A DNA stretch of 64,000 nt from Rufibacter roseolus (GTDB taxonomy: Bacteria; Bacteroidota; Bacteroidia; Cytophagales; Hymenobacteraceae), in the NCBI RefSeq assembly GCF_017916365.1, contig NZ_JAFMSU010000003.1, forward strand, positions 1,054,001 to 1,118,000, in the 5' to 3' direction. The position numbers were made by a program, and so were the translations under genes. The notes beneath the pieces are model-generated. The model had not been told where the DNA came from. It did no database searches and was given only the letters and a program-made list of their open reading frames with translations. The first letter of the stretch is position 1. Every line of letters starts with the position of its first letter. Below, in pieces: positions 851-61,191 of this stretch.

Positions 851-886
851 GTTTCGGGCCTGTTTTGCAGAAGATAGGCCCGAAAC
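851..886. repeat. Intergenic palindrome, copy a
   Basis: Perfect 11-bp arms GTTTCGGGCCT (851-861) and AGGCCCGAAAC (876-886) around a 14-base loop, starting 6 bases after the dehydrogenase stop. It belongs to the dispersed palindrome family described in the findings and may also act as a weak terminator. Confidence 0.75.
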
Positions 887-947
887 ACTTTCTTCAACTA
901 TCTATTTCTGTAAACTATTCTTTTTACTTTTGATCTAATTCTCTAAA

Positions 948-955
948 TACTTTTG
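948..955 (+). promoter_or_regulatory. Candidate Bacteroidota -7 box (TACTTTTG)
   Basis: Matches TAnnTTTG 39 bases upstream of the ATG at 995. An identical TACTTTTG lies at 925-932, so there may be two alternative start sites. No well-spaced TTTG -33 box was found for either, so this is a motif match only. Confidence 0.45.
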
Positions 956-994
956 CCTCTTAGAAACTATTTACCCTTTAACATTTTAGCTTTA

Positions 995-1609
995 ATGAAA
1001 CACATTTTACTCCTATCTCTTTTTTATTTAATCTTTTTATCACCTTCATTAGCCCAAACCCAATCCGGGCCAGCAGAAAAGAAAATAACTGAGAATATCT
1101 GTGGCTGTATGACCAGCCTCGATTATGAAAAGATAACTGATAAACAAAGTGCGCAGCAAGCTTTTGTTGATTGCTTTTCTAAACAATCAGGTTTGTTAAT
1201 TCAATTAGCAGAAGAGAGAAATATAGAGTTTACTGACGGTCCAGCAATGAAGCAATTGGGCATTGATGTTGGAAAGAACCTCATGAAAGACAACTGTGAA
1301 GCTTTCATGAAATTATCAGTACTCATGGCAAAGGAAACAGAAGAAGGAGCTTCAACAGGATTTGCAGAAGGCAAACTAAAGCGGATTGACTCTAAAGACT
1401 TCAACTACTTTATCTTGACTGATGGTAGCAATAATGAAAAGTCTTTCATTTGGCTTAGACAGTTTACAGGATCAGATAAATTCACTTCTAATTCCAGCAA
1501 GTATATCAACAGTAAACTCAAAATCAAGTGGCAGGAAATTGAGGTATATATTCCTTCGGCCAAGAATTATTACAAAATAAAAGAAGTAGTGGGGATAGAA
1601 GTTTTGTAA
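995..1609 (+). CDS. Small secreted protein with four cysteines, function unknown
   Basis: 204-residue protein that I do not recognise. The ATG at 995 is chosen because it gives a clean type I signal peptide (hydrophobic residues 4-20, cleavage near SLA|Q); an in-frame TTG at 953 would add 14 unlikely residues and lies inside the -7 box. The mature part has Cys36-x-Cys38, Cys60 and Cys101, which could form two disulfides. The C-terminal third is polar and beta-like. Base composition is clearly more AT-rich than the flanking genes, which suggests recent acquisition or weak expression. It is transcribed alone and ends at the strong hairpin 1659-1706. Confidence 0.6.
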   Translation: MKHILLLSLFYLIFLSPSLAQTQSGPAEKKITENICGCMTSLDYEKITDKQSAQQAFVDCFSKQSGLLIQLAEERNIEFTDGPAMKQLGIDVGKNLMKDNCEAFMKLSVLMAKETEEGASTGFAEGKLKRIDSKDFNYFILTDGSNNEKSFIWLRQFTGSDKFTSNSSKYINSKLKIKWQEIEVYIPSAKNYYKIKEVVGIEVL

Positions 1610-1658
1610 AACGCCATATACTCTTTAAGCTATTTGAAGCATCTGCTTCACCCTATTA

Positions 1659-1706
1659 CCAAAAAGCAACGGCCACTTTCCTGAGAAAGTGGCCGTTGCT
1701 TTTTGG
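1659..1706. terminator. Bidirectional terminator, 22-bp perfect stem
   Basis: Arms 1659-1680 and 1685-1706 are exact reverse complements with a CTGA loop. The stem begins CCAAAAAGC and ends GCTTTTTGG, so both strands give a U-tract. It separates two convergent genes. Confidence 0.9.
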
Positions 1707-1735
1707 CTTATTTTCAACAAAACAGGCTAAAAACA
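1701..1735. repeat. Intergenic palindrome, copy b
   Basis: TTTTGGCTTATTTTC and AAAACAGGCTAAAAAC form the two arms. It overlaps the right arm of the 1659-1706 terminator and lies just past the 3' end of the CPBP gene. Confidence 0.6.
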
Positions 1736-1745
1736 TTTTCGCTTT

Positions 1746-2588: not shown

Positions 2589-2735
2589 GAGGTATTTAGA
2601 TATTGCTTCTAGCCACGGTTTCAGCGCCTAAGCATGATAACCAGAGGAGATAAGCTTAAACATAGCCTTGCCCCTATGTTCTTAATTCACTACCTTATCC
2701 AGCTCATTCCGTTTCAGGCTTACTTTCTCAAAAAT

Positions 2736-5168
2736 ATGCGCAAAACGCTACTCCCCTTTCTCTTCGCTTTTCTGGCATTTTCCCAGATCTGGGCCCAAAA
2801 CAAACCCGCAGGCATCGCCGGTAAAACCGCGGGCATGCAGAAGTTCAGCGGTTATTTCCCGTTTTACTGGGACGAGGCCACCGGCCGTATCCTGCTGGAG
2901 ATTGACAAACTGGACCAGCAATTCCTATATGTGAACTCCCTGGCCGCCGGGCTGGGCTCCAACGACATCGGGTTGGACCGCGGGCAGTTGGGCGGCGAGC
3001 ACGTGGTGTATTTCCACAAGGTTGGCCCCAAGGTGCTGCTCATTGAACCCAACCAGGGCTACCGCGCCATGAACGGCAACCCCGCCGAGGAACAGGCCGT
3101 GGCGCAGTCTTTCGCGCAGTCGGCGCTGTGGGGATTTAAGGTGGAGGCCACCGAGGGAGACAGAGTACTGGTTGACGCCACCGAGTTCCTCCTCCGCGAT
3201 GCCCATGACGTGGTGGGCAGCATCCGCCGCAGTCGCCAGGGCTCTTACCGCCTGGATGGCAACCGCTCAGTTATGTACCTGCCCCGCACCAAGAACTTCC
3301 CGCAGAACTCAGAATTTGAGGCCACGCTCACCTTTGTGGGCGGTGAGGACGCTGGCGGTTTCGTGCGCAGCGTCGCCCCATCGGCGCAAGCCATCACGCT
3401 GCGTCAGCACCACTCATTCGTGCAACTGCCAGACAAAAACTATACGCCCCGCGCCATGGACCCCAGAGGCGGCTACTTCGGGATTGAGTACTTTGATTTC
3501 AGCACGCCCGTGGAACAGCCCATTGTGAAGCGTTTTATTGCCCGGCACCGCCTTCAGAAAAAGAACCCGGCCGCTGCCGTCTCAGAAGCCGTGGAGCCGA
3601 TTGTGTACTACGTGGACCATGCCGCGCCGGAGCCCATCAGAAGCGCGTTGCTGGAAGGTGCCCGCTGGTGGGCGCAAGCGTTTGAGGCCGCCGGTTACAA
3701 AGACGCTTTCAAAGTAGAGATTCTGCCTGTAGATGCTGACCCCATGGACGTGCGCTACAACGTGATCCAGTGGGTGCACCGCAGCACTCGGGGCTGGTCT
3801 TACGGAGCCACCGTCTCGGACCCCAGAACCGGTGAGATCATCAAAGGTCACGTGAGCCTGGGTTCGCTGCGCGTGCGCCAGGATTTCCTCATCGCCGAAG
3901 GGTTGCTGGCGCCCTATGAACAAGGCAAACCCGCCAATCCCGAGATGATGAAAATGGCGCTTTCCCGCCTACGGCAACTGTCGGCGCACGAACTAGGGCA
4001 CACCCTGGGCATCATGCACAACTACGCCGCCAGTGTGAGCAACCGCGCCTCTGTAATGGATTATCCCCACCCTACCGTTAAACTGACCGCGGGCGGCGAG
4101 ATTGACCTTTCTGATGCCTACGCCGTGGGCATAGGTGAATGGGATAAAGAAGCCATAAAATTTGGTTACCAGCATTTCCCCGCCGGCACCAATGAGGCCC
4201 AGGCTCTGGATCAGCAACTGCGCGAGGCCCACAAACGCGGCCTGCAGTTTATCTCTGACCGCGATTCCCGCGCACCCGGCGGCGCGCATCCGCAGGCGCA
4301 CCTGTGGGACAACGGCGCCAGCGCCTCTGAAGAACTGAAGCATGTATTAAGTGTGCGGCAGAAAGCCTTGGAGCGTTTCGGGGAGAATAACATCAAGCCC
4401 GGCGTGCCGATGGCGATGCTGGAAGACGTGCTGGTGCCCATCTACAACTATCACCGCTACCAGGTAGAGGCGGCCGCCAAACTAGTGGGTGGCGTGAACT
4501 ACACCTACGCCTCGCGCGGCGATGGACAGTTGGTAACCGAGTTCGTGCCCGAGGCCGAGCAGCAGAAAGCCCTGGATGCCTTGCTCGCCACGCTTCAGCC
4601 TAACGTGCTGGTGCTGCCGGAGAAAATCATCGCCGCTATTCCGCCCCGGCCCGCCGGCTGGTCTCCTACCCGCGAGCTGTTTGACAAACGCACTGGCCTA
4701 ACCTTTGACCCACTGGCCGCCGCCGAGGCCTCGGCAGATTTCACGCTTTCCTTCCTCTTCCACCCAGAGCGCGCCACCCGGTTGGTGGAGCTGAAAGCCC
4801 GGGGCAACGAACTAGGTTTGGATGAGGTCCTGAACCAGATCATTGACAAGACCTGGGAAAGCAAAAGCGCTTCGGGCATGAACGGCCAGGTGCAGCTACT
4901 CACCCAGCAATTGGTTTTGACCCACCTCATGGCTCTTTCCCAAAACGAAGAGGCCTCTTACGCAGCCCGCGCCGCAGCCCTACTGCAACTGAACCAATTG
5001 GAGAAGAAAGCCAAGAAACTGGCCAACTCCTCTAACGATGCGGTGAAAGCCAACGCTCTCCTGGCCCTGGACCGCCTCAAAAAACCACAGGAAGCCAAAC
5101 CGCAACTCCACAAAGACCTTCCGCCCGGCGCCCCCATCGGCTCCCTGGACATGATCGGTTGTGAATAG
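2736..5168 (+). CDS. Secreted zinc-dependent metalloprotease (metzincin-like, DUF5117/DUF4953 type)
   Basis: 810-residue exported protein. The ATG at 2736 is chosen because it starts a typical signal peptide (hydrophobic residues 5-18, cleavage near IWAQ); an upstream in-frame ATG at 2634 adds 34 residues without signal character. The zinc site is the metzincin form H418-E-x2-H422-x2-G425-x2-H428 in HELGHTLGIMH, followed by a Met-turn at Met441 in SVMDYP. The large N-terminal region (about 25-300) matches the Bacteroidota DUF5117-type prodomain, and the C-terminal third is mostly helical. Acts in the periplasm or outside the cell; substrate unknown. Monocistronic, ending at a palindrome and then a terminator. 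Confidence 0.88.
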   Translation: MRKTLLPFLFAFLAFSQIWAQNKPAGIAGKTAGMQKFSGYFPFYWDEATGRILLEIDKLDQQFLYVNSLAAGLGSNDIGLDRGQLGGEHVVYFHKVGPKVLLIEPNQGYRAMNGNPAEEQAVAQSFAQSALWGFKVEATEGDRVLVDATEFLLRDAHDVVGSIRRSRQGSYRLDGNRSVMYLPRTKNFPQNSEFEATLTFVGGEDAGGFVRSVAPSAQAITLRQHHSFVQLPDKNYTPRAMDPRGGYFGIEYFDFSTPVEQPIVKRFIARHRLQKKNPAAAVSEAVEPIVYYVDHAAPEPIRSALLEGARWWAQAFEAAGYKDAFKVEILPVDADPMDVRYNVIQWVHRSTRGWSYGATVSDPRTGEIIKGHVSLGSLRVRQDFLIAEGLLAPYEQGKPANPEMMKMALSRLRQLSAHELGHTLGIMHNYAASVSNRASVMDYPHPTVKLTAGGEIDLSDAYAVGIGEWDKEAIKFGYQHFPAGTNEAQALDQQLREAHKRGLQFISDRDSRAPGGAHPQAHLWDNGASASEELKHVLSVRQKALERFGENNIKPGVPMAMLEDVLVPIYNYHRYQVEAAAKLVGGVNYTYASRGDGQLVTEFVPEAEQQKALDALLATLQPNVLVLPEKIIAAIPPRPAGWSPTRELFDKRTGLTFDPLAAAEASADFTLSFLFHPERATRLVELKARGNELGLDEVLNQIIDKTWESKSASGMNGQVQLLTQQLVLTHLMALSQNEEASYAARAAALLQLNQLEKKAKKLANSSNDAVKANALLALDRLKKPQEAKPQLHKDLPPGAPIGSLDMIGCE

Positions 5169-5204
5169 CGTTTTACCCCCGTTTTCCTGAAAACAGCCCA
5201 AAAT
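5168..5204. repeat. Intergenic palindrome, copy c
   Basis: GTTTTCCTGAAAAC core at 5181-5194 with outer GCGTTTT and CCCAAAAT flanks. It starts at the stop codon of the metalloprotease and runs into the terminator that follows. Confidence 0.65.
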
Positions 5205-5232
5205 CCTACCTCCACCAGAGGTGGGATTTTTT
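5201..5232 (+). terminator. Rho-independent terminator after the metalloprotease gene
   Basis: Twelve-pair stem AAATCCTACCTC / GAGGTGGGATTT with one wobble pair, a 5-base loop and a following T run. Confidence 0.8.
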
Positions 5233-7167: not shown

Positions 7168-7176
7168 GGATTTTTC

Positions 7177-7241
7177 AGTCCTGAGTCCATAGTCCATAGT
7201 CTTGAGTCAAATTTCCCAACTCAGGACTCAGAATTCAAGAC
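7177..7241. repeat. Nested inverted repeats built on GACTCAGGACTCA-like units
   Basis: AGTCCTGAGT (7177-7186) pairs with ACTCAGGACT (7219-7228), and AGTCTTGA (about 7198-7205) pairs with TCAAGACT (about 7235-7242). A direct repeat of GTCCATA lies between. It fills most of the tldD-tldE gap and could fold or attenuate transcription. Confidence 0.6.
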
Positions 7242-7289
7242 TCAGAACTTTCAACAAGCAGTTTCAACTTACATCAGACGTATCTATCC

Positions 7290-8637: not shown

Positions 8638-8666
8638 GGCCCTCTCCCACCGAGAGGGCTTTTTTA
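8638..8666 (+). terminator. Rho-independent terminator after tldE
   Basis: GGCCCTCTC / GAGAGGGCT stem with a CCACC loop, followed by six T. Confidence 0.88.
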
Positions 8667-8696
8667 GGCCTACTTTCCAAGAATAAGTTCTAAAAT

Positions 8697-8855
8697 GTAG
8701 CGTCGTTACACCGTAACGACGTGGTTCTACAGGGCAAAACCGCCTCCTTACTATATAAAATAAACTGCCTTTACAACATTGTCTTGGAGCAAAGCCTTTC
8801 TGGTAGTGACGTTCTTGTTTCAAAGACACTCGTCGTTACAGTGTAACGACGCTAC
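8697..8855. repeat. 159-bp MITE-like element with palindromic ends
   Basis: The left end GTAGCGTCGTTAC (8697-8709) and right end GTAACGACGCTAC (8843-8855) are perfect inverted repeats. Each end is also itself palindromic: CGTCGTTAC, a 3-base centre, GTAACGACG. The interior has no coding potential. Confidence 0.75.
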
Positions 8856-8861: not shown

Positions 8862-8901
8862 TATTTTAGGCTCATCTTCAGGAAAACAGCCCCAAAACGC
8901 C
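8862..8901. repeat. Intergenic palindrome, copy d
   Basis: ATTTTAGGCTCATCTTC and GAAAACAGCCCCAAAACG arms. It begins 6 bases after the MITE-like element. Confidence 0.6.
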
Positions 8902-9030: not shown

Positions 9031-10890
9031 ATGGCTAAAATAGCAATAAATCTTACCACCGCTTCCATCCAAAAGGAAGAGGTGATTGTGGGCATTGACC
9101 TGGGTACCACCAACAGTCTGGTGGCTTATATGCACCCCGAGGACCATGCCCCCATTGCCATCAATGACCAAGGCTTGGGCACCATTGTCCCATCGGTGGT
9201 GCATTTCTCCAGAGAAGGAGAAGTGATTGTGGGCAATAACGCCAAAGAATACCTGTTAACTGATCCGGCCAACACCATTTACTCGGTGAAGCGCTTGCTG
9301 GGCAAATCTTACCAGGATTTGGGCGAGCACAAGGATTTCTTCGGCTACAAGATCATTGACGATAACTCTGAGGGGCTGGTGAAGATTCGGGTGCAGGACA
9401 AATTCTACTCCCCTATTGAACTCTCCGCCGAGATCCTGAAAGAACTCCGCGCCCGCGCCGAGCACGCCCTGAAAACGCCGGTGAACCGCGCCGTGATCAC
9501 CGTGCCCGCTTACTTCAACGACTCCCAGCGCCAGGCTACCCGCGATGCCGGGAAACTGGCCGGGCTGGAGGTGCTGCGCATTGTGAATGAGCCTACCGCA
9601 GCTTCGTTGGCGTACGGTATTGGCTTGGATCAAAGCGAGGAACGCACCATTGCCGTGTATGACCTTGGCGGCGGTACGTTCGATATCTCCATACTGCGCA
9701 TCCACCAAGGCATCTTTGAGGTGCTCTCTACCAATGGTGACACCTTCCTGGGTGGCGATGACCTGGACCGTGCCATTGTGAATCACTGGTTCCAGCAGAA
9801 TCCTTCCCTGGCCACGCAGGTATCTGAGGATGCGAAACTATCCCAGGCGGTGCGTTTACAGGCCGAGGAGGCGAAGAAAGCCCTCAGCAGCCATAATACC
9901 TTTACTAGTCAATTGAATGGTGTGGAGTTAGCCTTAGACCGGTCTACGTTTGATCAACTCATCACCCCCATCGTAGACCGCACCATGGCTTCCTGCCGGA
10001 TGGCTCTGAAAGACGCCAACTTGCAGCCCGAGCAGATTGACACCGTAATCATGGTGGGTGGTTCTACCCGCGTGCCCCTGGTGTACCAGACCGTTTCTGA
10101 ATTCTTTGGGAAGCCCGCGCACAATGAACTGAACCCAGATGAGGTAGTGGCCCTTGGCGCTGCCATCCAGGCCGACGTTTTGGCCGGGAACCGTAAGGAC
10201 ATCCTGCTGCTTGACGTGACCCCGCTCACGCTGGGCATTGAAACCATGGGTGGCCTCATGGACTCCATTATCCCGCGTAACTCTAAGATTCCCACCAAAG
10301 CCGGCCGGCAGTATACCACTTCCGTGGACGGACAGGTGAACATGAAAATATCGGTGTACCAGGGCGAGCGCGATCTGGTGAAAGAGAACCGCAAACTAGC
10401 CGAGTTCGACTTAAAAGGCATTCCAGCCATGCCCGCCGGCTTCCCTAAAGTAGACGTGAACTTCATTTTGAACGCTGACGGAATCCTGAAGGTAGAGGCC
10501 ATTGAGCTGCGCTCGGGTGTACGGCAGGAAGTGGAAGTGAAACCGCAGTACGGCCTCACCGATGAGCAGGTAGAGCAGATGCTGATGGACTCCATTACCC
10601 ACGCCCGTGAGGACGTCTCCACCCGCATGGTCATTGAGGCCCGCACCACCGCCGAGCAGATGATTTACCAGGTAGAGCGCTTCGTGCAGAAAAACGGAGA
10701 GCACCTGACCCCAGAAGAGATAGAATTGACAAACCAGAACGTGCAGCGCCTGAAAGACGCCCTGCCTTCCGGGGACAAAGACACCATTCTGAAGGCGGTA
10801 GACGTGTTGGAGGAACAGACCAGCCCCTTTGCGGAACGCGTGATGCAGATCTCCATCAAGAAAGCCATGACTGGTAAGAAGATTGAATAA
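9031..10890 (+). CDS. hscA: Hsp70-type Fe-S cluster assembly chaperone HscA
   Basis: 619-residue Hsp70 ATPase. Phosphate-binding motifs are GIDLGTTNS (21-29) and DLGGGTFD (211-218), with the nucleotide-binding domain to about 390 and the substrate-binding domain and helical lid after it. It is shorter than DnaK, lacks the Gly-rich C-terminal tail, and has a 20-residue lead before the first phosphate loop, as in HscA of Bacteroidota. HscA works with HscB on the IscU scaffold; neither partner is in this window, so the HscA versus second DnaK call rests on sequence flavour. Long antisense frames over it are artefacts. Monocistronic. Confidence 0.8.
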
Positions 10891-10930
10891 ACGTTTCATG
10901 GCTGTTGTGAAGAAAATGGCCTTGAAACAG
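10891..10930. repeat. Intergenic palindrome, copy e
   Basis: CGTTTCATGGC and GCCTTGAAACA arms with a GTTGTGAAGAAAA centre. It begins on the base after the hscA stop codon and precedes the terminator. Confidence 0.6.
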
Positions 10931-10993: not shown

Positions 10994-11299
10994 TTACTTC
11001 TCTTCTTCATCTTTTTCCACAATGAGGTACAGGTCCTCAGTGGGTTTCTTCATGAGGTATTTCTCACGCGCGAATTTCTCCAGCAACGCGGGGTTACTCA
11101 TCAGTTCCTTGCGGTCTTTCTGCACCTCGGCAATCTTCTCCAGGTAATAGTCACGCTCCTCTTCCAGGATGGTGAGTTTGCGGCTGGTCTGGAACTGGGT
11201 GATGAAATCATTGGAGTCAAAGAAGAACATCCAGGCCAGGAAGGCCACGCCAGTCAAGAAATAGAAGTTGCGGAAGAATTTAGGGACGCGTGCTAACAT
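10994..11299 (-). CDS. FtsB/DivIC family septum formation initiator
   Basis: 101-residue bitopic membrane protein. A short cytoplasmic N-terminus, one membrane helix (about 12-28, FYFLTGVAFLAWMFFF), a coiled coil (about 40-70, LTILEEERDYYLEKIAEV) and the conserved region around NPALLEKFAREKYLMKKPTEDLY are all as in FtsB/DivIC. It acts at the division septum, bridging FtsL and FtsQ-type proteins. It lies downstream of eno on the same strand, as is common in Bacteroidota, but a hairpin between them implies its own promoter or partial readthrough. Confidence 0.85.
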   Translation of the reverse strand: MLARVPKFFRNFYFLTGVAFLAWMFFFDSNDFITQFQTSRKLTILEEERDYYLEKIAEVQKDRKELMSNPALLEKFAREKYLMKKPTEDLYLIVEKDEEEK

Positions 11300-11400: not shown

Positions 11401-11439
11401 TGTTTATGTCCTGTTTTCTGAAAAACAGATCCAAAACGG
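11401..11439. repeat. Intergenic palindrome, copy f
   Basis: TGTTTATGTCCTGTTTTC and GAAAAACAGATCCAAAACG arms, 28 bases past the eno stop (minus strand) and ahead of its terminator. Confidence 0.65.
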
Positions 11440-12761: not shown

Positions 12762-13874
12762 TTATGATTTCTTTTCTTTCTCCAGCATCTCTACAAAGAG
12801 ATCAAACAGGTACTCAGAGTCGTGCGGCCCCGGAGAAGACTCTGGGTGGTACTGTACGGAGAATGCCGGTTTGTTCTTTATCCTGATGCCTTCAACGGTA
12901 TTATCGTTGAGGTTGATGTGGGTAATTTCCACATTAGGGTTATTCTTCACCGCCTCGGCGTCTACGGCAAAGCCATGGTTCTGCGAAGTAATCTCGCTAC
13001 GGCCAGTGATGAGGTTTTTAACCGGGTGGTTCAAGCCACGATGACCATTGTGCATTTTGTAGGTAGGAATACCGTTGGCCTGAGCCAGAATCTGGTGCCC
13101 CATGCAAATCCCGAACATAGGTTTCTCTACTGCAAGGATCTGCTCTACGCTTTTCACCGCCTCGGTGGTTACGGCAGGGTCACCAGGACCGTTGGAGATA
13201 AAGTATCCGTCGGGTCCCCAGGCTTCCATTTCCTCAAAGGTGGTACCGTAAGGGAACACTCGGCACTCGCAGCCTCTGATGGTAAGGTTATTCAGGATGT
13301 TGCGTTTTACGCCCAAATCCAGCACCGCAACCTTAAACCGGGTCTCGGCTACCGGTAAGTCATACTGCTGGGCAGTCGTTACCTTAGAGGAGAGCTCCAG
13401 ACCACTCATAGATGGAACCTCCAGCAACTGCTGCTTCAAGGTATCAACGTCTGTGGTCTCAGATGAGATGATGGCGTTCATCACACCTTTGTCACGCACG
13501 TAGCGCACCAGTTCACGGGTATCAATCTCGCAGATTCCTACAATCCCGGCCTTCTCAAAATACTCCTGCAAAGACCCTTCAGCGGTCTTTCTTGAAAAAT
13601 GGTGCGAAAACTCTTTGCAGACAAGTCCTTTAATCTGGATGTTGCCAGACTCTACTTCTTCCTGCTGCACGCCATAGTTACCCACATGGGAAACCGTGGT
13701 TATCACAATCTGACCATAGTAAGAAGGATCAGTGAAAATCTCCTGGTAACCAGTCATGCCTGTGTTAAAACAGACTTCGCCGCCAGTGGTTCCAACTTTC
13801 CCAAGGCTCTTACCATGGAAAACAGTGCCGTCTTCCAGCACCAATACTGCATCAGTTGTTGTATGAAGCTTCAT
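12762..13874 (-). CDS. carA: Carbamoyl-phosphate synthase small subunit
   Basis: 370-residue glutamine amidotransferase subunit that supplies ammonia to CarB for carbamoyl phosphate used in arginine and pyrimidine synthesis. The N-terminal CPSase_sm_chain domain (about 1-150; GYQEIFTDPSY) is followed by a class I amidotransferase domain with the nucleophile Cys257 in GICMGHQIL and the His-Glu pair in QYHPESSPGPHD. carB is not adjacent in the window. The start lies just downstream of the ribosomal block terminator; a TATTTTTG -7-like box is at 13893-13900. Confidence 0.96.
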   Translation of the reverse strand: MKLHTTTDAVLVLEDGTVFHGKSLGKVGTTGGEVCFNTGMTGYQEIFTDPSYYGQIVITTVSHVGNYGVQQEEVESGNIQIKGLVCKEFSHHFSRKTAEGSLQEYFEKAGIVGICEIDTRELVRYVRDKGVMNAIISSETTDVDTLKQQLLEVPSMSGLELSSKVTTAQQYDLPVAETRFKVAVLDLGVKRNILNNLTIRGCECRVFPYGTTFEEMEAWGPDGYFISNGPGDPAVTTEAVKSVEQILAVEKPMFGICMGHQILAQANGIPTYKMHNGHRGLNHPVKNLITGRSEITSQNHGFAVDAEAVKNNPNVEITHINLNDNTVEGIRIKNKPAFSVQYHPESSPGPHDSEYLFDLFVEMLEKEKKS

Positions 13875-13892
13875 TCTGTTTTAGATATGTGG

Positions 13893-13900
13893 CAAAAATA
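13893..13900 (-). promoter_or_regulatory. Candidate carA -7 box (TATTTTTG)
   Basis: TAnnTTTG on the minus strand 19 bases before the carA start, adjoining the rplQ terminator. No -33 box at normal spacing. Confidence 0.4.
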
Positions 13901-13901
13901 A

Positions 13902-13933
13902 AAAAGGGATACGAGTAATCTCGTATCCCTTTT
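13902..13933 (-). terminator. Terminator of the rplQ end of the ribosomal block
   Basis: 14-bp perfect stem AAAAGGGATACGAG / CTCGTATCCCTTTT, TAAT loop. Its minus-strand T tract suits the rplQ transcript. Confidence 0.9.
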
Positions 13934-13953
13934 CAATAATTATTGCATACTTA

Positions 13954-14478
13954 TTATTCTGCGGCTGGAGTTTCAGCTGAATCAGTAGCAGCGGCCTCTC
14001 CGGAAGTTGCAGCTGGTGCGTCAGTAGAAGCCTGCGCATCAGTTGATTTCTTACCTGAAGAACGACGTCTTGTCTTAGGCTTAGCAGCTGCGGCAGCACC
14101 GGTTGTGGTCAGCATATCCTCGTTGTAGTCAACAAGTTCAATGATACACATTTCAGCGTTGTCACCTAAACGGGTTCCGGTTTTCAAAATGCGGGTATAG
14201 CCACCAGGACGATTCGCGATTTTGCCTGCTACTCCGTCAAAAAGTTCTTTAACAGACTCTTTGTTTTGCAGGTAAGAGAATACAGTACGACGTGAGTGTG
14301 TGGTATCGCTCTTTGATTTGGTTAATAGAGGCTCTACATATTTCCGCAGTGCTTTCGCTTTAGCCACCGTAGTGATTACGCGCTTATGCAGAATTAAAGA
14401 TGAAGCCATGTTAGAAAGCATTGCAGCTCTGTGAGAAGCTGTTCTTCCTAAGTGGTTGTTTTTTTTACCGTGTCTCAT
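13954..14478 (-). CDS. rplQ: Large ribosomal subunit protein bL17 with C-terminal extension
   Basis: 174 residues. The first 120 or so are a standard bL17 core ([20 protein letters not shown], then the [13 protein letters not shown] region), which binds 23S rRNA near the exit tunnel. The last 45 or so residues are low-complexity, rich in Ala, Thr, Ser and Glu ([18 protein letters not shown] onward) and likely disordered; E. coli L17 is 127 residues. It is last in the alpha-operon-like run after rpoA, ending at the 13902 terminator. Confidence 0.95.
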
Positions 14479-14544
14479 TACATTGATTGTGCACGTGCAT
14501 ACCGTCGATCAACCTTTCGGGATCGGGAATTATGCCGTAGATTA

Positions 14545-15534
14545 TTAATCCTCTTCTAATTTGTACTTGGCGATATCCATTCCGAAAGTCAGGCCTTTGT
14601 CAGAAACCAGGTTTTCCAACTCAGTCAAAGACTTTTTCCCAAAGTTACGGAATTTCATCATGTCTGAAAGATCCAATTGCACTAAGTCACCCAAAGTTCT
14701 GATGTCAGCTGCTTTCAAGCAGTTGTACGCCCGAACAGAAAGGTCCATGTCATGCAAAGGAGTCTTAAGTACTTTTCTCATGTGCAGCATTTCCTCATCA
14801 ACCGCTTCTTCCTCTTCAGGCTTCACTGTCTCAAAAGTCATAGTGTTGTCAGAGAAAAGCATGAAATGCTGGATCAGAATATTGGCAGCTCCTTTCAAAG
14901 CGTCTTCCGGATGGATAGAACCATCTGTAGTGATCTCAAGTAAGAGACGCTCATAGTCAGTCTTCTGCTCAACGCGGGTGTTCTCAACGCTGTATTTCAC
15001 GTTCTTAACAGGCGTGAAGATAGCATCAATCGCGATCTGGCCGAAAACCTGATCTGCTGGTCTGTTCTCTTCTGCTGGCACGTAGCCTCTTCCCTTCTGA
15101 ATAGTTAATTCAATCTCGAAAGAAGACTCAGGGTCCAAGTGGCAAATCACTAGGTCAGGATTCAACACCTGGAACGAGCCAGAGAATTTATTGATGTCAC
15201 CGGCAGTGAAGGTATCTTGCTTGCTGATGCTTACGGTGATTTTATCATCAACCAGGTCACCAATTTTCTTGAACCGAACCATTTTCAGGTTCAGGATAAT
15301 CTCAGAGACATCTTCAACCACACCTTCAATGGTAGAGAACTCATGGAGCACACTAGGAACCCGGATGCTGGAGATGGCATATCCCTCCAATGAGGAGAGA
15401 AGAATTCTTCTCAGCGCATTCCCAATGGTAACACCATAGCCCTTTTCTAGCGGCTTAAATTCAAACTGCCCGTTGAAATCGTCGGATTTCTCCATTACGA
15501 CTTTCTCTGGCATTTGAAAGGCTAATATTGACAT
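14545..15534 (-). CDS. rpoA: DNA-directed RNA polymerase subunit alpha
   Basis: 329-residue alpha subunit. The N-terminal assembly domain (about 1-235; [20 protein letters not shown] and [11 protein letters not shown]) dimerises and docks beta and beta'. A short acidic linker ([10 protein letters not shown]) leads to the C-terminal domain (about 255-320; [20 protein letters not shown]), which binds UP elements and regulators. Sits between rpsD and rplQ, as in other bacteria. Confidence 0.97.
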
Positions 15535-15572
15535 GATTGCTGGTTTAAGGTTGACACTTAAATTAGAACTGA

Positions 15573-16178: not shown

Positions 16179-16199
16179 TTCTAATACTAAATAATATCC

Positions 16200-16592
16200 T
16201 TAAACTCTTCTGCGTTTTGGAGGACGACATCCGTTGTGCGGAAGTGGAGTCACATCTTTGATAGAAGTAACTTCAATACCTACGTTTTGCATAGTCCGGA
16301 TAGCAGACTCACGTCCAGCTCCTGGGCCTTTCACAAAAACTTCAGCCTTTCTCATTCCAGCTTCGTAAGCTACTTTACCGCAGTCGGCAGCAGCCATTTG
16401 GGCAGCATAAGGAGTATTTTTCTTAGACCCTTTAAATCCCATTTTACCAGCAGATGCCCAGGAGATAACCTGGCCATTGTTGTTAGTAACAGAGATAATA
16501 ATATTGTTGAAAGAAGCTTTGATGTGTACCTGACCAACAGGCTCCACCACAACAACGCGCTTCTTGGCTTTATCTTTTCTTTTCTGAGCCAT
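16200..16592 (-). CDS. rpsK: Small ribosomal subunit protein uS11
   Basis: 130-residue S11, part of the 30S platform near the Shine-Dalgarno helix. Family segments [41 protein letters not shown] and [12 protein letters not shown] at the C-terminus are intact. Only 10 bases separate it from rpsM. Confidence 0.97.
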
Positions 16593-16602
16593 TGTCGTTT
16601 AA

Positions 16603-16980: not shown

Positions 16981-16989
16981 GTTTTTAAA

Positions 16990-17106: not shown

Positions 17107-17110
17107 CTGT

Positions 17111-17329: not shown

Positions 17330-17332
17330 GTA

Positions 17333-18103: not shown

Positions 18104-18106
18104 TCC

Positions 18107-19432: not shown

Positions 19433-19435
19433 CTG

Positions 19436-28402: not shown

Positions 28403-28522
28403 GCTATCCTAAATTATTTGTTTTCAGATACTAAGGTATTTTCACCTCTGTACTTACCCTTAGGTCACTCATAAGTAGGTCGTTAACTTTCCTGCATAGG
28501 AAATGATTCCAACCTCTTGGCT

Positions 28523-28560
28523 GTTTTCAGGCTTATTTTGCGAAATCTGGTCTAAAACAC
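28523..28560. repeat. Intergenic palindrome, copy g
   Basis: GTTTTCAGGCTTATTTTG and GAAATCTGGTCTAAAAC arms in the rpsJ-rplC gap; a degenerate copy. Confidence 0.55.
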
Positions 28561-28613: not shown

Positions 28614-28652
28614 TATTTTCAGGTCATTTTCACCAAAACAGCACTAAAACAG
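28614..28652. repeat. Intergenic palindrome, copy h
   Basis: TATTTTCAGGTCATTTTC and AAAACAGCACTAAAACA arms. Second copy in the same gap, 53 bases from copy g and 20 bases from the rpsJ terminator. Confidence 0.55.
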
Positions 28653-36848: not shown

Positions 36849-36887
36849 CGTTTTGCGCCCCTTTTCCTGAAATCTCCTCCAAAACAG
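36849..36887. repeat. Intergenic palindrome, copy i, between rpoB and rpoC
   Basis: CGTTTTGCGCCCCTTTTC and GAAATCTCCTCCAAAACAG arms, 4 bases past the rpoB stop and inside the rpoBC operon. Confidence 0.6.
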
Positions 36888-48822: not shown

Positions 48823-48860
48823 CGTTTTGGGCCTGTTTTGTGAAAAGCGGGCCCAAAACG
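48823..48860. repeat. Intergenic palindrome, copy j (best preserved)
   Basis: Outer arms CGTTTTGGGCC and GGCCCAAAACG are perfect reverse complements; the centre is TGTTTTGTGAAAAGCG. It lies 9 bases after the biotin carrier stop. Confidence 0.8.
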
Positions 48861-50296: not shown

Positions 50297-50332
50297 CGTT
50301 CCAGGTCTGTTTTAAGGAAAACAGGTTAAAAA
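50297..50332. repeat. Intergenic palindrome, copy k
   Basis: GCGTTCCAGGTCTGTTTT and AAAACAGGTTAAAAA arms around AAGG, 7 bases after frr and just before its terminator. Confidence 0.65.
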
Positions 50333-50370
50333 GAGAAGGCCCCGCACTTGACAGTGCGGGGCCTTCTCTT
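50331..50370. terminator. Bidirectional terminator after frr
   Basis: 18-bp perfect stem (50331-50348 with 50353-50370), TGAC loop, flanking A and T tracts. Confidence 0.92.
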
Positions 50371-50800: not shown

Positions 50801-51183
50801 TGTCAGGGGGTAGTCCTTCAGTTTGTCTGTCTGGGAAAGAAAGCAAATTACACTACTTTCCTGAGAGAACCAAGTACTTATACGCTAAAAAATATGGTTA
50901 TTTTAACTCATTCGTTGACTAAACCTTGTTTTAACGCCCTTTAGAATAAAAGGTTTCCCATATTTATCCACATACCGGTAAATAGCAAAAAGTAAGTAGC
51001 GTAGAAGAAACAACTAAGCACGATGCTTTCCCTTAACTGGCCTGATCTTCCACTAATCTGCGATTTTCAAGGTTTTCAAATGGCTTGAAACTCAAAAAAT
51101 TTGAAAAACAAAAACCGGCGTTCTGGGCTCCTTTTAGAAAAAGGATGCCTAAAACGCCGGCTTATGGCAATTGATTTCTTCTA
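50801..51183. other. Intergenic region, 383 bases
   Basis: AT-rich, with no open frame that looks real and no convincing promoter. Its right end holds the nadD terminator hairpin at 51115-51160. Confidence 0.7.
51115..51160 (-). terminator. Terminator after nadD, palindrome-family copy l
   Basis: CCGGCGTT / AACGCCGG outer arms with an inner GGCTCCTTTTAG / AAAAGGATGCC pairing; TTTTTG follows on the minus strand. It combines the palindrome layout with a real terminator. Confidence 0.75.
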
Positions 51184-51762
51184 CTAAATATATAGCTTCT
51201 TGGCCTGTATGTATTCCTGTACTTCTTCCTGCAGCAGGTAACGGGTAGATTTACCTTCCTTGAGACACTTCCGGATGAAAGTGGCCGAGATATCCAGGAG
51301 CGGAGCCGGAACCACGGTTATCTTGGCGTGGTTCTGCAAAGCCTCAGGAATCTTGGCGCTACCCGGTCTGGGATATACCAGTACCTCGTAGAGGTCCAGA
51401 ATCTGCTCGTAGTTTTTCCACTTGGGCAGGGTAGCCAGGTTGTCTTCGCCCATGATGAGCACAAACTGGTACTTAGGATACTTTTCCCTGAGATAGGTAA
51501 GCGTATCTATGGTGTAGCTGGGCTTGGGCATCCGGAACTCAATGTCGGTTACGCCAAGGTCGGCGTTATCGGCAATGGCCAGACGCACCATGTGCAGGCG
51601 GTCAAACTCATGCAACAAGCTGCTGCTGGGTTTGAACGGGTTCTGCGGGCTCACCACAAGCCAGACAGTGTCTAAGGTGGTATTGGCGGCCATGTAGTTG
51701 GCCAGGATCAGGTGCCCTATATGGATGGGGTTAAAGGATCCAAAGAGTAATCCTACCCGCAT
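51184..51762 (-). CDS. nadD: Nicotinate-nucleotide adenylyltransferase
   Basis: 192-residue nucleotidyltransferase that makes nicotinate adenine dinucleotide in NAD synthesis. GSFNPIHIGHL at residues 8-18 is the HxGH nucleotide-binding motif, and the second motif is in DISATFIRKCLKEGKS. Two bases separate it from gmk, the usual gmk-nadD pairing. Confidence 0.95.
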   Translation of the reverse strand: MRVGLLFGSFNPIHIGHLILANYMAANTTLDTVWLVVSPQNPFKPSSSLLHEFDRLHMVRLAIADNADLGVTDIEFRMPKPSYTIDTLTYLREKYPKYQFVLIMGEDNLATLPKWKNYEQILDLYEVLVYPRPGSAKIPEALQNHAKITVVPAPLLDISATFIRKCLKEGKSTRYLLQEEVQEYIQAKKLYI

Positions 51763-55242: not shown

Positions 55243-55278
55243 AAAACGCCCGGCTTCTTTACAGAAGCCGGGCGTTTT
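55243..55278. terminator. Terminator after ahcY
   Basis: 16-bp perfect stem (55243-55258 with 55263-55278) with a TTAC loop and A/T tracts on both sides. Confidence 0.92.
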
Positions 55279-55311
55279 TATGTTGTTTTCCGGAAAACAG
55301 GCCGGAAACGC
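55274..55311. repeat. Intergenic palindrome, copy m
   Basis: GTTTTTATGTTGTTTTCC and GGAAAACAGGCCGGAAAC arms, 6 bases past the ahcY stop on the minus strand and ahead of the terminator. Confidence 0.65.
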
Positions 55312-57628: not shown

Positions 57629-58816
57629 ATGCGTATTTTCACCATTGAAGAGCAAAAGTTCATCCTGGACCACCAACAGCAAGACACTGCCCAACTCATG
57701 TTGCAGGCGAAGCGTTTTGCTCCCCTGCCGGTCCCGGAATTAGTGCAGCAGATAAAGTCCCGTCAAAAGGCGCAGCAAAAGCTCCCTACCTGGGCAAAGC
57801 ACCCGCAAACCATTTTCCCGGTTTCTCTTTCGGTTGAACAGAGCTCTTCTGAAGATACAGCTGCCTATAAGGCAACCCTGGTGCAGGGACAGACGCTGGT
57901 GGACCTGACCGGCGGATTTGGAGTGGACAGCTATTACTTCGCCAGGAGTTTCGGTCAGGTGATCCACATTGAGCAGAACCAGGAACTGCAGGAAATAGCC
58001 AGTTATAATTTCAAGTTGCTGGGCGCGGAGAACATCCAAAGCCTTTCTACCACCGCTGAAGAGTATTTGCAACGCATGGATACATCAGTGGATGTCATCT
58101 ACCTGGACCCGGCTCGCCGCGGCCAGAGCCAAGAACGGGTTCACCTGCTGCAGGACTGCACGCCAGACGTATTGGGCTTGCTGCCTTTGCTGCTGCAGAA
58201 AAGTAAAGCGGTGCTCTTGAAGACCGCCCCCATGCTGGACATTGATCTGGCGTTGCAGCAGTTGAGCCACGTTGCCCAGGTGTGGGTTATAGCCGTGCAG
58301 AACGAATGCAAAGAAGTACTCTACCTTCTGAAGCCCGAGGCCATGGAACCGCCTCTCCTCACTACCGTCAATCTCTTGGCGCACCAGGAAGCCCAGCCGC
58401 TCAGCTTCACGAAACAACAGGAAGAGAACGCTGCTGTTACCTATTCAGAGCCCCAGCGGTATCTGTATGAGCCCAATACGGCTTTGCTTAAAGCCGGCGC
58501 CTACAAGTGGCTTTCTGAGAAATACGGCGTACACAAACTCCAACGCAACAGCCATCTCTACACCTCAGAAGAACTGCAACCGGCATTTCCGGGCCGGATT
58601 TTTGAAATCATTGGTAAACCGAAGGCCAATACCAAGGAACTGCAGCTACTACTTCCCGATAAAAAAGCCAACATCACCGCGCGCAACTATCCGCTTACCG
58701 TGGCGCAGCTCCGGGATAAGGTAAAATTGAAGGAAGGCGGAGACGATTATCTTTTCGCCACCACCGATCTGCATAACAAACCCATTCTGCTGCTCTGCCG
58801 GAAAGCCGGGGTTTAG
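57629..58816 (+). CDS. Class I SAM-dependent methyltransferase with THUMP-like domain
   Basis: 395-residue protein of the PG_1098 type. An N-terminal helical part (about 1-60), a Rossmann methyltransferase with the SAM-binding DLTGGFGVDSYYFARSFG loop and the catalytic-region DPARRG at 160-165, then a ferredoxin-like linker and a C-terminal THUMP-like domain (about 320-390). The architecture points to methylation of a structured RNA, probably tRNA or rRNA, but the target is not known to me. Monocistronic with its own -7 box. Confidence 0.85.
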   Translation: MRIFTIEEQKFILDHQQQDTAQLMLQAKRFAPLPVPELVQQIKSRQKAQQKLPTWAKHPQTIFPVSLSVEQSSSEDTAAYKATLVQGQTLVDLTGGFGVDSYYFARSFGQVIHIEQNQELQEIASYNFKLLGAENIQSLSTTAEEYLQRMDTSVDVIYLDPARRGQSQERVHLLQDCTPDVLGLLPLLLQKSKAVLLKTAPMLDIDLALQQLSHVAQVWVIAVQNECKEVLYLLKPEAMEPPLLTTVNLLAHQEAQPLSFTKQQEENAAVTYSEPQRYLYEPNTALLKAGAYKWLSEKYGVHKLQRNSHLYTSEELQPAFPGRIFEIIGKPKANTKELQLLLPDKKANITARNYPLTVAQLRDKVKLKEGGDDYLFATTDLHNKPILLLCRKAGV

Positions 58817-59562: not shown

Positions 59563-60021
59563 CTATTGGCGGATGAAGACTTCGGTGGCGCCATCGGCGA
59601 TGACGTTGCTGATGACCAGCGTGTTTTCGCCGCAGAACCAGAACTGGTAACCCACCGGCGGCAGGCTCTGCCCCACCAGCTTGAAGGATTTGCGCTCACC
59701 CTGCAGTTTGCCGTTCACGTGCTCTTCAAACTCGCCGTTTTCATAAAAAGTCAGGGTTTTGGCTTCACCTATCTGCTCCCCGGTCAGGAACTCGTCTTCC
59801 TGGGCGCCCATGTAATTGGTCTGGAGGCCGCGCAGCTCCCATTTGCCTTGTAACTGTGAGACCGCCGTAGCCGAATCTGTGGTGGTAAACTCACAAAGAG
59901 CCACCGCGGTATCCTTGTTTTCTTCTTTGGGTGAGGAGGTCTCTGCAGGTTTTTCACCGTTGCCTTGGCAACTGGCCAGAGAAGCGCCCAGTATCAGAAG
60001 CGCCGCATATATCTTTTTCAT
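59563..60021 (-). CDS. Small lipoprotein, possibly lipocalin-like
   Basis: 152-residue lipoprotein with Cys18 in SLASC, then a short Glu/Lys/Ser-rich linker and a strand-rich domain of about 100 residues beginning VSQLQGKWELRGLQT, which looks lipocalin-like. A later Cys in WFCGEN may pair with Cys43. Ten bases upstream of the glycosylase gene and likely co-transcribed with it. Exact family not recognised. Confidence 0.65.
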   Translation of the reverse strand: MKKIYAALLILGASLASCQGNGEKPAETSSPKEENKDTAVALCEFTTTDSATAVSQLQGKWELRGLQTNYMGAQEDEFLTGEQIGEAKTLTFYENGEFEEHVNGKLQGERKSFKLVGQSLPPVGYQFWFCGENTLVISNVIADGATEVFIRQ

Positions 60022-60060
60022 AGTAGGGTCAGTTTTAACCTTGGCAAGAACGCAAAAAGA

Positions 60061-60101
60061 ATAGGGGCAGCCAAGTGACCATTATCCTTGGTTGCCCCTA
60101 T
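60061..60101 (-). terminator. Terminator after the DUF4919 gene
   Basis: 15-bp stem ATAGGGGCAGCCAAG / CTTGGTTGCCCCTAT with one mismatch, an 11-base loop and TTCTTTTTG on the minus strand. The arms resemble the hairpin inside the 5254-5426 element. Confidence 0.75.
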
Positions 60102-60125
60102 CGTTATAAATCAGGAAATTCCTGG

Positions 60126-60860
60126 TTAACGCTTTTTCTCCACCGCTTTCTGGATGTTGAAGTAGACCTCGGTGAGGTTGAGTTTGTTAGGGGTCTGCAG
60201 GCTTACCAAATCATATTTGTTATCCACCAGCTGCGGCCGGCCTTTCTGCCGAAGCCCCACCACCGTGAGGAACATGTATTCATCACGGGGGGCGTTCAGC
60301 ACCACGGCGGTTTCTTTGCTGCGCCCGTTGCCGCTGGCTTTGATGGCGGCCATGAGGCCCTCAAACTTGGTGAGCCACTTCTGGCTTTCCACCTTGTTGT
60401 TCATCTCGCCGTAGGCCATGTGCATGAGGTACATCACATCCAGGTTGAAGGGATCGGTGGCCAGCAGTTTTTTGCCTGTGCTTATAATCTCTGGGAACCG
60501 CTCATATAACAGCATCTCATTGAGGGCATCTGACTTGTCGTTGGGTTTGTAGGGGTTGTAGCCAGGTTGGGTGGTCCAGCCGTAATACAGGTGCTTGTAC
60601 TCGTCCAGGGTGAGTTGGGTGTCATTGGCGTGGTAGCGCTTGAGCAGGTTGGGGTAGTACATCTTGGACTTGGGCGAACTCACCGCCGTCTTGATGGCAC
60701 TGTAGTCAACTTTGGAAACGGTCTGACCCTGCCCTTCTTTAAAAACTGATTGGGCCTGACCATTTTTAGAGGTTTGGGCTTCGCCTTTTTTAGAAGTCTG
60801 GGCCTGGCCTTGCAAAAAGAGTCCCAGGCACAGCAGGCTAAGAATAAAGAATTGTTTCAT
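60126..60860 (-). CDS. DUF4919 domain-containing secreted protein
   Basis: 244-residue exported protein of the DUF4919 family, function unknown. Signal peptide in residues 1-19 (FFILSLLCLGLFLQG). The mature start has four 8-9 residue repeats (18-50) built on GQAQTSKK. The DUF4919 part (about 50-240) is helical, with YYPNLLKRYHANDTQLT and LMHMAYGEMNNKVE. The repeat is a likely disordered, Gln/Ser/Lys-rich tether. Confidence 0.8.
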   Translation of the reverse strand: MKQFFILSLLCLGLFLQGQAQTSKKGEAQTSKNGQAQSVFKEGQGQTVSKVDYSAIKTAVSSPKSKMYYPNLLKRYHANDTQLTLDEYKHLYYGWTTQPGYNPYKPNDKSDALNEMLLYERFPEIISTGKKLLATDPFNLDVMYLMHMAYGEMNNKVESQKWLTKFEGLMAAIKASGNGRSKETAVVLNAPRDEYMFLTVVGLRQKGRPQLVDNKYDLVSLQTPNKLNLTEVYFNIQKAVEKKR

Positions 60861-60973
60861 GTGGATGATAAAGGGAATTTGAGACGATTTAGCCTATGGC
60901 AAATACAGTGCTAAAAACTACAGGCTTTGTAAAAAGTTACATCTTCATCGCGGTTCCAGCAGCACAGCACATC

Positions 60974-61012
60974 CGTTTCGGGCCTGTTCTTGCTAAAATA
61001 ACGCTGAAACAG
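60974..61012. repeat. Intergenic palindrome, copy n
   Basis: CGTTTCGGGCCTGTTCTTG and AAAATAACGCTGAAACAG arms, a degenerate copy not next to a stop codon. Confidence 0.55.
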
Positions 61013-61151
61013 AAGAATTATGCGCCACAAACCGGCTTTAAAATGACGTATCATTTTCATACTGAAAACACGTGATTTTTCCAGATGACGCCTCTAAGCA
61101 AAGCTGCTTGGCCAGAAACCAATATCAGCTCCGCCAGGAACTATGTTCCTG

Positions 61152-61191
61152 CTGTTTCAGGCTTGTTTCCCGGAAAACAGCCTAAGAACAG
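61152..61191. repeat. Intergenic palindrome, copy o
   Basis: CTGTTTCAGGCTTGTTTCC and GGAAAACAGCCTAAGAACAG arms, 50 bases upstream of the riboswitch promoter. Confidence 0.6.

Follow-up and report, generated by a model that had tools for sequence, protein, structure and literature searches.

A 38-bp palindromic repeat with species dialects in the genus Rufibacter, a probable double-strand DNA recognition site

To our knowledge, long sequence-specific marks in thousands of copies occur in few bacterial lineages. Such repeated marks have led to mechanisms, including uptake specificity and methylation. The uptake signal sequences of Pasteurellaceae are abundant, have intragenic copies and contain phased AT tracts, all of which also hold for the repeat of Rufibacter (Bacteroidota; Hymenobacteraceae) described here, but they belong to a different phylum and are not palindromic, unlike the Rufibacter dyad. 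Several other iterated elements are close enough to be compared. As set out in PMC3630211, the DUS of Neisseriaceae likewise reach thousands of copies per genome within one clade, form lineage dialects, occur as inverted pairs tied to terminators and have intragenic copies in permissive regions; they differ in being a short word (overrepresented 10-mers) for which pairing is not required, whereas the Rufibacter unit is a 38-bp dyad of a Bacteroidota genus. REP elements, with their GTAG and CGTC superfamilies (PMC3733652), and REPINs (PMC3116915) are also short palindromes of high copy number at gene 3' ends, some of them intragenic, and CGTC repeats are reported there from Bacteroidetes among other phyla (PMC3733652). 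The stems described in PMC3733652 measure 5-13 bp and carry an asymmetric tag, whereas the Rufibacter arms are 18 bp long, tagless and found at genus-wide places. Cyanobacterial HIP1 (PMC4390886) is a highly iterated palindrome with lineage-specific replacements, but it is 8 bp long and tied to DNA methyltransferases, whereas the Rufibacter dyad spans 38 bp with a variable centre. Among open-licence papers, judged by titles and abstract openings, we found no description of the Rufibacter repeat.

The window analysed here is a stretch of 64,000 nucleotides from Rufibacter roseolus. The original prediction placed about 15 intergenic copies of a 35-46 nt palindrome in it. All 15 are present, with the unit starting 0-4 nt from the predicted positions, but the variable length did not hold, since the copies align without gaps as a fixed 38-nt dyad, [CT]GTTTTnGGCCTGTTTTC-NN-mirror, built of four GTTT/AAAC blocks at spacings of 11, 8 and 11 bp. 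The 38-column profile holds little information past 2 nt of flank and has no asymmetry. An unfiltered covariance model scored these 15 copies and one more, at 2710-2747, at 32 bits or above on the better strand; the next match, at 8660, reached 16.3 bits. Rfam gave no gathering-level match at the dyad sites in the window. The copies are as follows.

850..887, no strand: 38-bp dyad, 5 nt past the stop at 844
1698..1735, no strand: 38-bp dyad lying 10 nt beyond the stop codon of a minus-strand gene at 1746; terminator 1659-1706 next, overlapping the dyad end
2710..2747, no strand: 38-bp dyad, absent from the earlier list, at the 5' edge of ORF 2676-5168, whose true start is possibly downstream
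5169..5206, no strand: 38-bp dyad directly 3' of a stop, terminator-like hairpin next
8660..8697, no strand: decayed copy, scoring 25 bits with the weight matrix and 16 with the covariance model
8862..8899, no strand: 38-bp dyad, 169 bp ahead of the Hsp70 gene 9031-10890; copy near this position in 10/11 species
10892..10929, no strand: 38-bp dyad, 1 nt past the Hsp70 stop, then terminator; kept in 11/11 species
11401..11438, no strand: 38-bp dyad flanked by gene 10994-11299 and the enolase gene; retained in 11/11 species
28522..28559, no strand: 38-bp dyad in spacer 28310-28717, adjoining ribosomal-protein genes
28614..28651, no strand: 38-bp dyad in the same spacer, 28310-28717; terminator-like repeat 28673-28700 between the dyad and a minus-strand ORF ending at 28718
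36849..36886, no strand: 38-bp dyad, 5 nt past the rpoB stop, in the rpoB/rpoC gap
48823..48860, no strand: 38-bp dyad, 9 nt past a stop; kept in 14/14 genomes covering the place
50297..50334, no strand: 38-bp dyad, 7 nt past a stop, then terminator; kept in 15/15 genomes covered
51119..51156, no strand: 38-bp dyad lying 27 nt beyond the stop codon of minus-strand gene 51184-51762
55273..55310, no strand: 38-bp dyad, 7 nt past the S-adenosylhomocysteine hydrolase stop; terminator 55243-55278 next, overlapping the dyad end; kept in 15/16 genomes
58584..58621, no strand: weak copy within gene 57629-58816, 17 bits here and up to 30 in relatives; synonymous-change rank 3/382 windows
60974..61011, no strand: 38-bp dyad in a divergent intergenic region
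61153..61190, no strand: 38-bp dyad in the divergent region of the 60974 dyad, ahead of a cobalamin riboswitch

By ORF and gene coordinates, ten of the 15 copies start no more than 30 nt from a stop codon (850, 1698, 5169, 10892, 11401, 36849, 48823, 50297, 51119 and 55273), as had been proposed. The order stop, palindrome, terminator, predicted for at least four, can be read in the sequence at five (1698, 5169, 10892, 50297 and 55273); the 28614 copy has the opposite order, its terminator-like repeat lying between stop and palindrome. The additional dyad at 2710 has a counterpart 39-48 bp ahead of the homologous stretch in 6/6 loci that have the gene of its ORF, and the decayed copy at 8660 is matched by a strong one at the corresponding position in R. 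hautae (L072:9551). The segment at 12.7-31 kb was ruled out as a phage, its Pfam matches being ribosomal proteins, RNA polymerase subunits and elongation factors.

The repeat is abundant throughout the genome. A 400-kb sample of the R. roseolus genome gave 218 sites of at least 12 bits, whereas Markov-1 shuffling gave none in the last of four rounds (0-2 over all of them). The anticipated hundreds of copies biased toward stops were indeed found. The genome total is estimated at about 3,000 copies, or one per 2 kb, by extrapolation from the 400-kb sample, since genome scans scored limited candidates (150 or 33 per genome). With region classes drawn by a home-made gene caller, sites occupy 42/52 convergent, 82/215 co-directional and 24/50 divergent intergenic regions, 184 intergenic sites being spread over 148 regions. 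In co-directional regions, 32/100 sites start within 12 nt past the stop, compared with 11.9±2.9 expected. Site pairs less than 200 bp apart are rare (16 vs 45.7±5.4 expected), and counts per 20 kb are even (mean 9.7, variance 5.0).

This distribution is what gives weight to a chromosome-organising, boundary or global regulatory role, in which a nucleoid-type protein would bind roughly one dyad in each occupied intergenic region, preferably at the ends of transcription units, with DNA bending, insulation of neighbours or retention of supercoils as the effect. The graded occupancy, the short-range repulsion, the even counts and the AT blocks at 11-bp steps inside each arm all agree with such a role. 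The information per site, 31-51 bits in thresholded sites and so biased upward, nevertheless far exceeds the roughly 11 bits needed to address 3,000 sites. The 15-kb ribosomal operon of the window has no strong copy, and the extra contigs are depleted (0 sites in 20 kb, 1 in 60 kb and 7 in 60 kb); these are termed accessory rather than plasmids, as a relaxase search was empty in the R. roseolus genome and in control genomes alike. We also know of no named protein family of this nucleoid or boundary kind, which counts against the role as well. We regard it as possible, though somewhat doubtful. A strict need for spacing can be excluded because sites in coding sequence show no concentration in stretches poor in intergenic DNA and because the ribosomal operon does without a strong copy; the idea that coding sites act as filler of gene-dense stretches was unsupported (p 0.37).

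The repeat is restricted to the genus, and its positions are largely common to the species. With 33 candidates scored per genome, 16/16 Rufibacter genomes gave 31-33 matches each, compared with 1-5 in 11/188 other genomes of the family; a few non-Rufibacter genomes do have strong matches (best E 1.6e-10), and loci of other genera hold one site in 1,044,502 bases of 49 loci. A scan of viral sequences returned one contig carrying the motif. Places were kept across the genus in 11/11, 11/11 and 10/11 cases in one set of compared loci and in 14/14, 15/15 and 15/16 in the other, where genomes G008 and G013 cover some of the places only. R. immobilis has a private copy (L079:8241), the only one examined for an empty site, and the spacer around it did not align.

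Shared places bear directly on a REPIN- or MITE-like family, in which a transposase would once have spread palindromes to gene ends where they are now kept or decaying, the dialects reflecting successive masters. Near-stop placement, a species-specific consensus, differing states of decay and subtypes with matched arms would fit such a history, and a RAYT-type Y1_Tnp domain (PF01797) is matched in 15/16 Rufibacter genomes. The exception, however, is G007 (best E 0.5), a genome full of the repeat, and Y1_Tnp also occurs in 8/9 genomes of the same family without an abundant repeat; a RAYT/REPIN origin was rejected because the transposase does not track the repeat. Over 202 sites, flank identity at 2-11 nt was not clearly above that of shuffled pairs, giving no sign of target-site duplication, and together with the places common to the species this led us to reject recent transposition. 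No GTAG or CGTC tag was seen at the stem end in the 38-column profile. Copies are almost all distinct (122/122 in G014 and 119/120 in G006). The placement does resemble that of the REP-like mobile element suggested at the outset, but a mobile family is unlikely.

The consensus varies by species. In R. immobilis (25 sites), column 6 is A at 0.66 and column 7 is G at 0.82; G013 (28 sites) has C at 0.93 in column 13; G014 and G007 have T in column 7 at 0.93 and 0.90 (134 and 50 sites, respectively). G000, the most degenerate large sample, keeps T4, T5, T15 and T16 at 94-97% but T6, T12 and T14 at 61-64%, a sign of constraint. TTAG/CTAA forms occur among R. immobilis copies inside genes, with amino-acid differences. 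At window site 48823, four genomes have a GTTTA form, which among them is the genome-wide consensus in R. immobilis alone; there the two arms match one another across species.

Whether the symmetry belongs to RNA or to DNA can be read from the way the arms pair. The claim that pairing stays while the sequence drifts largely failed: 73.7% of cells pair in the 15 window copies, compared with 72.6% once the 3' letters have been permuted across them, and 124/500 shuffles were as high. Arms are independent in G014 (78.4% paired vs 78.8% expected) and in G007 (74.5 vs 74.3), with some covariation in G000 (60.9 vs 57.7%), G006 (76.2 vs 72.5; column 7 z 5.9), G010 (64.7 vs 62.8%) and G012 (63.2 vs 58.5). 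The predicted compensatory changes are weakly present in these last four genomes; they do not rise above shuffles in the window copies or above expectation in G014 and G007. On transcribed strands, mismatches at 383 co-directional sites of six genomes divide 544:520 between G-U and A-C, while 80 terminators used as control gave 20:7, and the base counts of the two arms are nearly equal on the transcribed strand. Because the arms are nearly independent and G-U equals A-C on transcribed strands, a double-strand DNA site is favoured over an RNA stem.

A hairpin at mRNA 3' ends, stabilising or processing transcripts, could account for the crowding of co-directional sites just past stops, the five cases of stop-palindrome-terminator order, part of the covariation and the lean to G-U at convergent sites oriented by the nearer stop (98:70); the 23 best-paired co-directional sites gave 25:17. 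It would not account for orthologous copies that pair at just 8-12/18 positions and are still kept (two compared sites), nor for copies inside genes and in divergent regions. The 3' UTR stabiliser or processing site of the original prediction is unsupported on the same grounds and by the near-independent arms; we rejected an RNA 3'-end element mainly on the strand mismatch test and consider it very improbable.

Copies inside genes extend the argument to protein-coding sequence. Genes of Pfam identity that hold them encode two Mur ligases, TilS, ComEC and GH77. In the Mur-ligase cluster, copies of at least 16 bits lie at the same codons in 15/15, 14/15, 14/15, 14/15 and 11/15 genomes, a set that excludes G007, one site of which was read separately. 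Synonymous change is reduced at 5/7 coding sites tested (ranks 12/455, 26/436, 5/436, 10/446 and 3/382), and the other two have no synonymous constraint (265/392 and 421/498); orthologues below 80% length were dropped in part of these tests and in the shuffle test, leaving 16 and 11 sequences for the two window genes in the former. Site scores stand 8.1-13.5 SD above synonymous shuffles, compared with a control 99th percentile of 7.8, although the control began from lower scores than the targets and part of the excess may be common descent. At one coding site, scores of 18-39 in 16/16 Rufibacter genomes stand against -2 to -46 for 7/7 orthologues from the sister genus. Two of the five cluster sites fall at weakly conserved protein positions (amino-acid identity 0.69-0.70 vs 0.90 for the gene). 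Several sites inside genes are thus under constraint, which also counts against a mobile family.

Abundance, fixed length and symmetry at the DNA level are observed properties of the repeat. We consider it probable, at about 70%, that it serves across the genome as a recognition site in double-strand DNA for a predicted protein acting in trans. Of the four options first offered, the protein-binding site is the supported one, and the 3' UTR stabiliser, processing site and REP-like mobile element are not supported. A 38-bp dyad has the shape that binding by a symmetric protein oligomer would lead one to expect, and a putative trans-acting DNA-binding protein of the genus would read the copies; no such protein was found. 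If its specificity shifted in a lineage, copies genome-wide would drift to a new dialect, so that reader and dialect may co-evolve.

As to the role of this recognition site, we tentatively propose, at a little short of even odds, a signature of self-DNA akin to uptake sequences, which would spread because marked DNA is preferentially taken up and recombined; we place this before a chromosome-organising or boundary role. The excess bits per site, the rarity of close pairs, the weakly conserved protein positions at two cluster sites and the site-poor accessory contigs all point this way. With DUS, the repeat shares hundreds to thousands of copies and species dialects, and it lacks the single oriented word able to stand alone: at a half-score of 16, isolated half-sites number 13, compared with 223 in palindromes and 5 in shuffles, whereas the uptake sequences known so far are short and able to occur singly, which argues against such a role.

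The repeat may represent a self-recognition or chromosome-organising system new to the group. In its fullest form, which we offer as a conjecture with a somewhat less than even chance, it would be a code for self-recognition throughout the genus, in which a 38-bp palindromic address recurs about once per 2 kb, with dialects co-evolving with one putative reader and shaping protein sequences inside genes. If true, we would know of no earlier uptake-type or chromosome-address system of such build in Bacteroidota. The Rufibacter mark is of unusual length and symmetry, and portions of housekeeping genes are constrained by it. Its dialects in 16 genomes amount to a natural experiment through which the reader protein could be sought.

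All 15 palindromes listed by the original prediction were recovered at their places in the window, with starts off by 0-4 nt. The shared unit stood, but the variable length of 35-46 nt did not, since the copies align without gaps over 38 nt with the consensus CGTTTTnGGCCTGTTTTC-NN-GAAAACAGGCCnAAAACG (hereafter the dyad). A covariance model built from these 15 copies, and run on the window without filters, sets 16 copies apart at a score of at least 32 bits on the better strand, with the next-best match at 16.3 bits. An Rfam scan of the window placed no family at gathering level on dyad copies, and literature searches, judged by titles and abstract openings, gave no description of this repeat. 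Window features besides the listed copies are as follows.

2710-2747, additional dyad copy from the covariance model, absent from the earlier list of 15
7169-7289, spacer filled by a separate degenerate repeat of AGTCCTGAGTC-like units, unlike the dyad; the same spacer holds it in five relatives compared, and lacks it in R. immobilis
12762-28309, run of ribosomal-protein and related genes, about 15 kb long, in which no strong copy occurs; the copies at 28522 and 28614 adjoin it
61254-61432, cobalamin riboswitch upstream of gene 61552-63480, adjoining two dyad copies

The dyad is abundant and largely confined to one genus. In 20 evenly placed 20-kb stretches of the window's own 5.5-Mb genome (closest named relative by one conserved gene Rufibacter hautae, 96%), a symmetric weight matrix trained in successive rounds on those same stretches found 218 sites of at least 12 bits in its final round versus 0 in shuffled sequence. 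Abundance is thus above chance, and the sample extrapolates to about 3,000 dyads per genome. Sampled stretches of other genus genomes carry 0.3-0.7 dyads per kb (cut-off at least 14 bits in one survey, at least 16 in another). Among 204 genomes of the family, with 33 candidates scored in each, all 16 genus genomes gave 31-33 matches, and 11 of the 188 others gave 1-5, including a few strong ones (best E 1.6e-10). Likewise, ten Rufibacter/Sabulibacter loci held 94 matches in 0.21 Mb, 49 loci of Pontibacter, Adhaeribacter, Hymenobacter and Solirubrum a single match of at least 12 bits in 1.04 Mb, and 21 further loci, mostly Mucilaginibacter, 6 in 0.40 Mb (top 16.6 bits). Accessory contigs of Rufibacter genomes are sparse in dyads (G000:C4, 0 in 20 kb; G009:C2, 1 in 60 kb; G013:C2, 7 in 60 kb; loci L300-L305 and L307) compared with 0.40-0.55 per kb on main contigs. 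Two short contigs, L306 (7.5 kb, G009) and L308 (7.3 kb, G000), carry three dyads each with identical spacing, and L306 terminates in 23S and 5S rRNA. The viral contig IMGVR_UViG_2839759663_000002 (L299) also matches the motif pattern and is possibly a provirus of the genus.

Placement relative to genes was counted over 464 kb with a home-made gene caller (sites of at least 12 bits): 188 of 243 sites are intergenic, and the other 55 lie mostly within called ORFs. At least one dyad occurs in 42/52 convergent, 82/215 co-directional and 24/50 divergent regions (184 sites over 148 intergenic regions). Against random placement within the same regions, the predicted bias toward gene 3' ends was borne out, with 32 of 100 co-directional sites (expected 11.9±2.9) and 23 of 56 convergent ones (11.5±2.5) starting within 12 nt of a stop; of the 28 divergent sites, no site is that close to a start (3.0±1.5). 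Pairs less than 200 bp apart are scarce (16 versus 45.7±5.4 expected). A chromosome-organising or boundary role fits this placement about as well as the uptake-like reading set out at the end.

Many places are shared across the genus. In 11 species compared around window positions 1-15 kb (ten named loci plus the window), a dyad lies directly 3' of the Hsp70 stop in 11/11, on the enolase side of gene 10994-11299, at a distance of about 100 bp, in 11/11, and some 150-200 bp upstream of Hsp70 in 10/11; three places around 48-63 kb hold one in 14/14, 15/15 and 15/16 genomes. The genome-wide consensus, or dialect, varies by species: R. immobilis has A at column 6 (0.66) and G at column 7 (0.82; 25 sites), G013 has C at column 13 (0.93) and A at column 14 (0.77; 28 sites), and G014 and G007 have T at column 7 (0.93, 134 sites; 0.90, 50 sites). 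A single place need not follow the dialect, because at 48823 (the 14/14 place), where GTTTTGG-type or GTTTAGG-type words stand on both arms and mostly match, GTTTA occurs in 4/14 genomes, of which R. immobilis alone has it genome-wide. Among the large samples, G000 has the most degenerate copies; there, T is retained at 94-97% in columns 4, 5, 15 and 16 and at 61-64% in columns 6, 12 and 14, an unevenness which argues against even decay of a dead element.

Is the dyad an RNA stem or a duplex DNA site? The claim that pairing persists as sequence drifts was not confirmed in the window, where arm pairing in the 15 copies is no higher than in column shuffles. In larger sets, the predicted compensatory change is weakly borne out: G014 (122 sites) and G007 (43 sites) have independent arms, and G000, G006, G010 and G012 show a weak correlation between arms, chiefly at columns 1 and 6-8. 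On their transcribed strand, 383 co-directional sites from six genomes show G-U and A-C mismatches at 544:520 (p 0.48), whereas 80 intrinsic terminators of the same DNA, detected with equal penalty for both mismatch types, show 20:7 (p 0.02). Base counts are nearly equal between the arms. On the other side, convergent sites, when given the orientation of their nearer stop, favour G-U (98:70), as do the 23 best-paired co-directional sites (25:17). On balance, we read the dyad from its sequence as a probable symmetric site in double-stranded DNA.

Copies inside genes bear on whether the DNA word itself is retained. High-scoring ones occur in Pfam-identified genes for two Mur ligases, TilS, ComEC, GH77 and a cNMP-binding protein. 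Five dyads of the Mur-ligase cluster recur at the same codons genus-wide (at least 16 bits in 15, 14, 14, 14 and 11 of 15 genomes), and G007 has the first of them as well. Within these genes, R. immobilis copies show a TTAG or CTAA form, accompanied by amino-acid differences. With 13-codon windows ranked within each gene, synonymous change is low at four cluster dyads (ranks 12/455, 26/436, 5/436 and 10/446) and at that in window gene 57629 (3/382), and unreduced at two other coding dyads (265/392, 421/498); the combined p is 2e-4. At two dyads of one cluster gene, amino-acid identity is 0.69-0.70 versus 0.90 for the whole gene, so the word is retained there while the protein varies; the remaining cluster dyads (0.87, 0.89 and 1.0) are close to gene values. 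Coding-dyad scores in other genomes lie 8.1-13.5 SD above synonymous shuffles, compared with 7.8 SD at the 99th percentile for the best matches of 150 column-permuted motifs; because these controls began at lower scores, common descent may account for some of the excess. At one coding dyad, sister-genus orthologues score -2 to -46 in 7/7. The ComEC-type competence gene of the window's own genome (L037:8579-10687) contains three dyads (31, 28 and 39 bits), including the sample's highest-scoring intragenic one, which may be coincidence.

Among known kinds of repeat, a GTAG or CGTC tag marks the REP superfamilies, those with GTAG being linked to the RAYT transposase (PMC3733652); the dyad lacks either tag and RAYT distribution does not track it, and REP membership was judged unlikely. 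The RepRanger table includes Flavobacterium and Thermoflavifilum, and 'Hymenobacter' and 'Cytophag' are absent from that article's text (PMC12306157). The methylation-linked HIP1 palindrome spans 8 bp (PMC4390886), whereas the dyad spans 38 nt. For Neisseriaceae DNA uptake sequences, PMC3630211 describes eight dialects, copies in thousands and inverted pairs tied to terminators.

Shared places, duplex-DNA symmetry and a consensus shifting by species together suggest a putative trans-acting protein that would recognise the dyad. Each dyad has four GTTT/AAAC blocks spaced 11, 8 and 11 bp, a spacing that a symmetric protein oligomer would fit. Furthermore, information per site is 31-51 bits in thresholded sets, above the approximately 11 bits that addressing 3,000 sites would take, and this surplus favours a process driving copies toward consensus. 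Such a process has been proposed for uptake sequences, of which those of Neisseriaceae (PMC3630211) are an example, and Rufibacter dyads may be driven toward their consensus in a similar manner.
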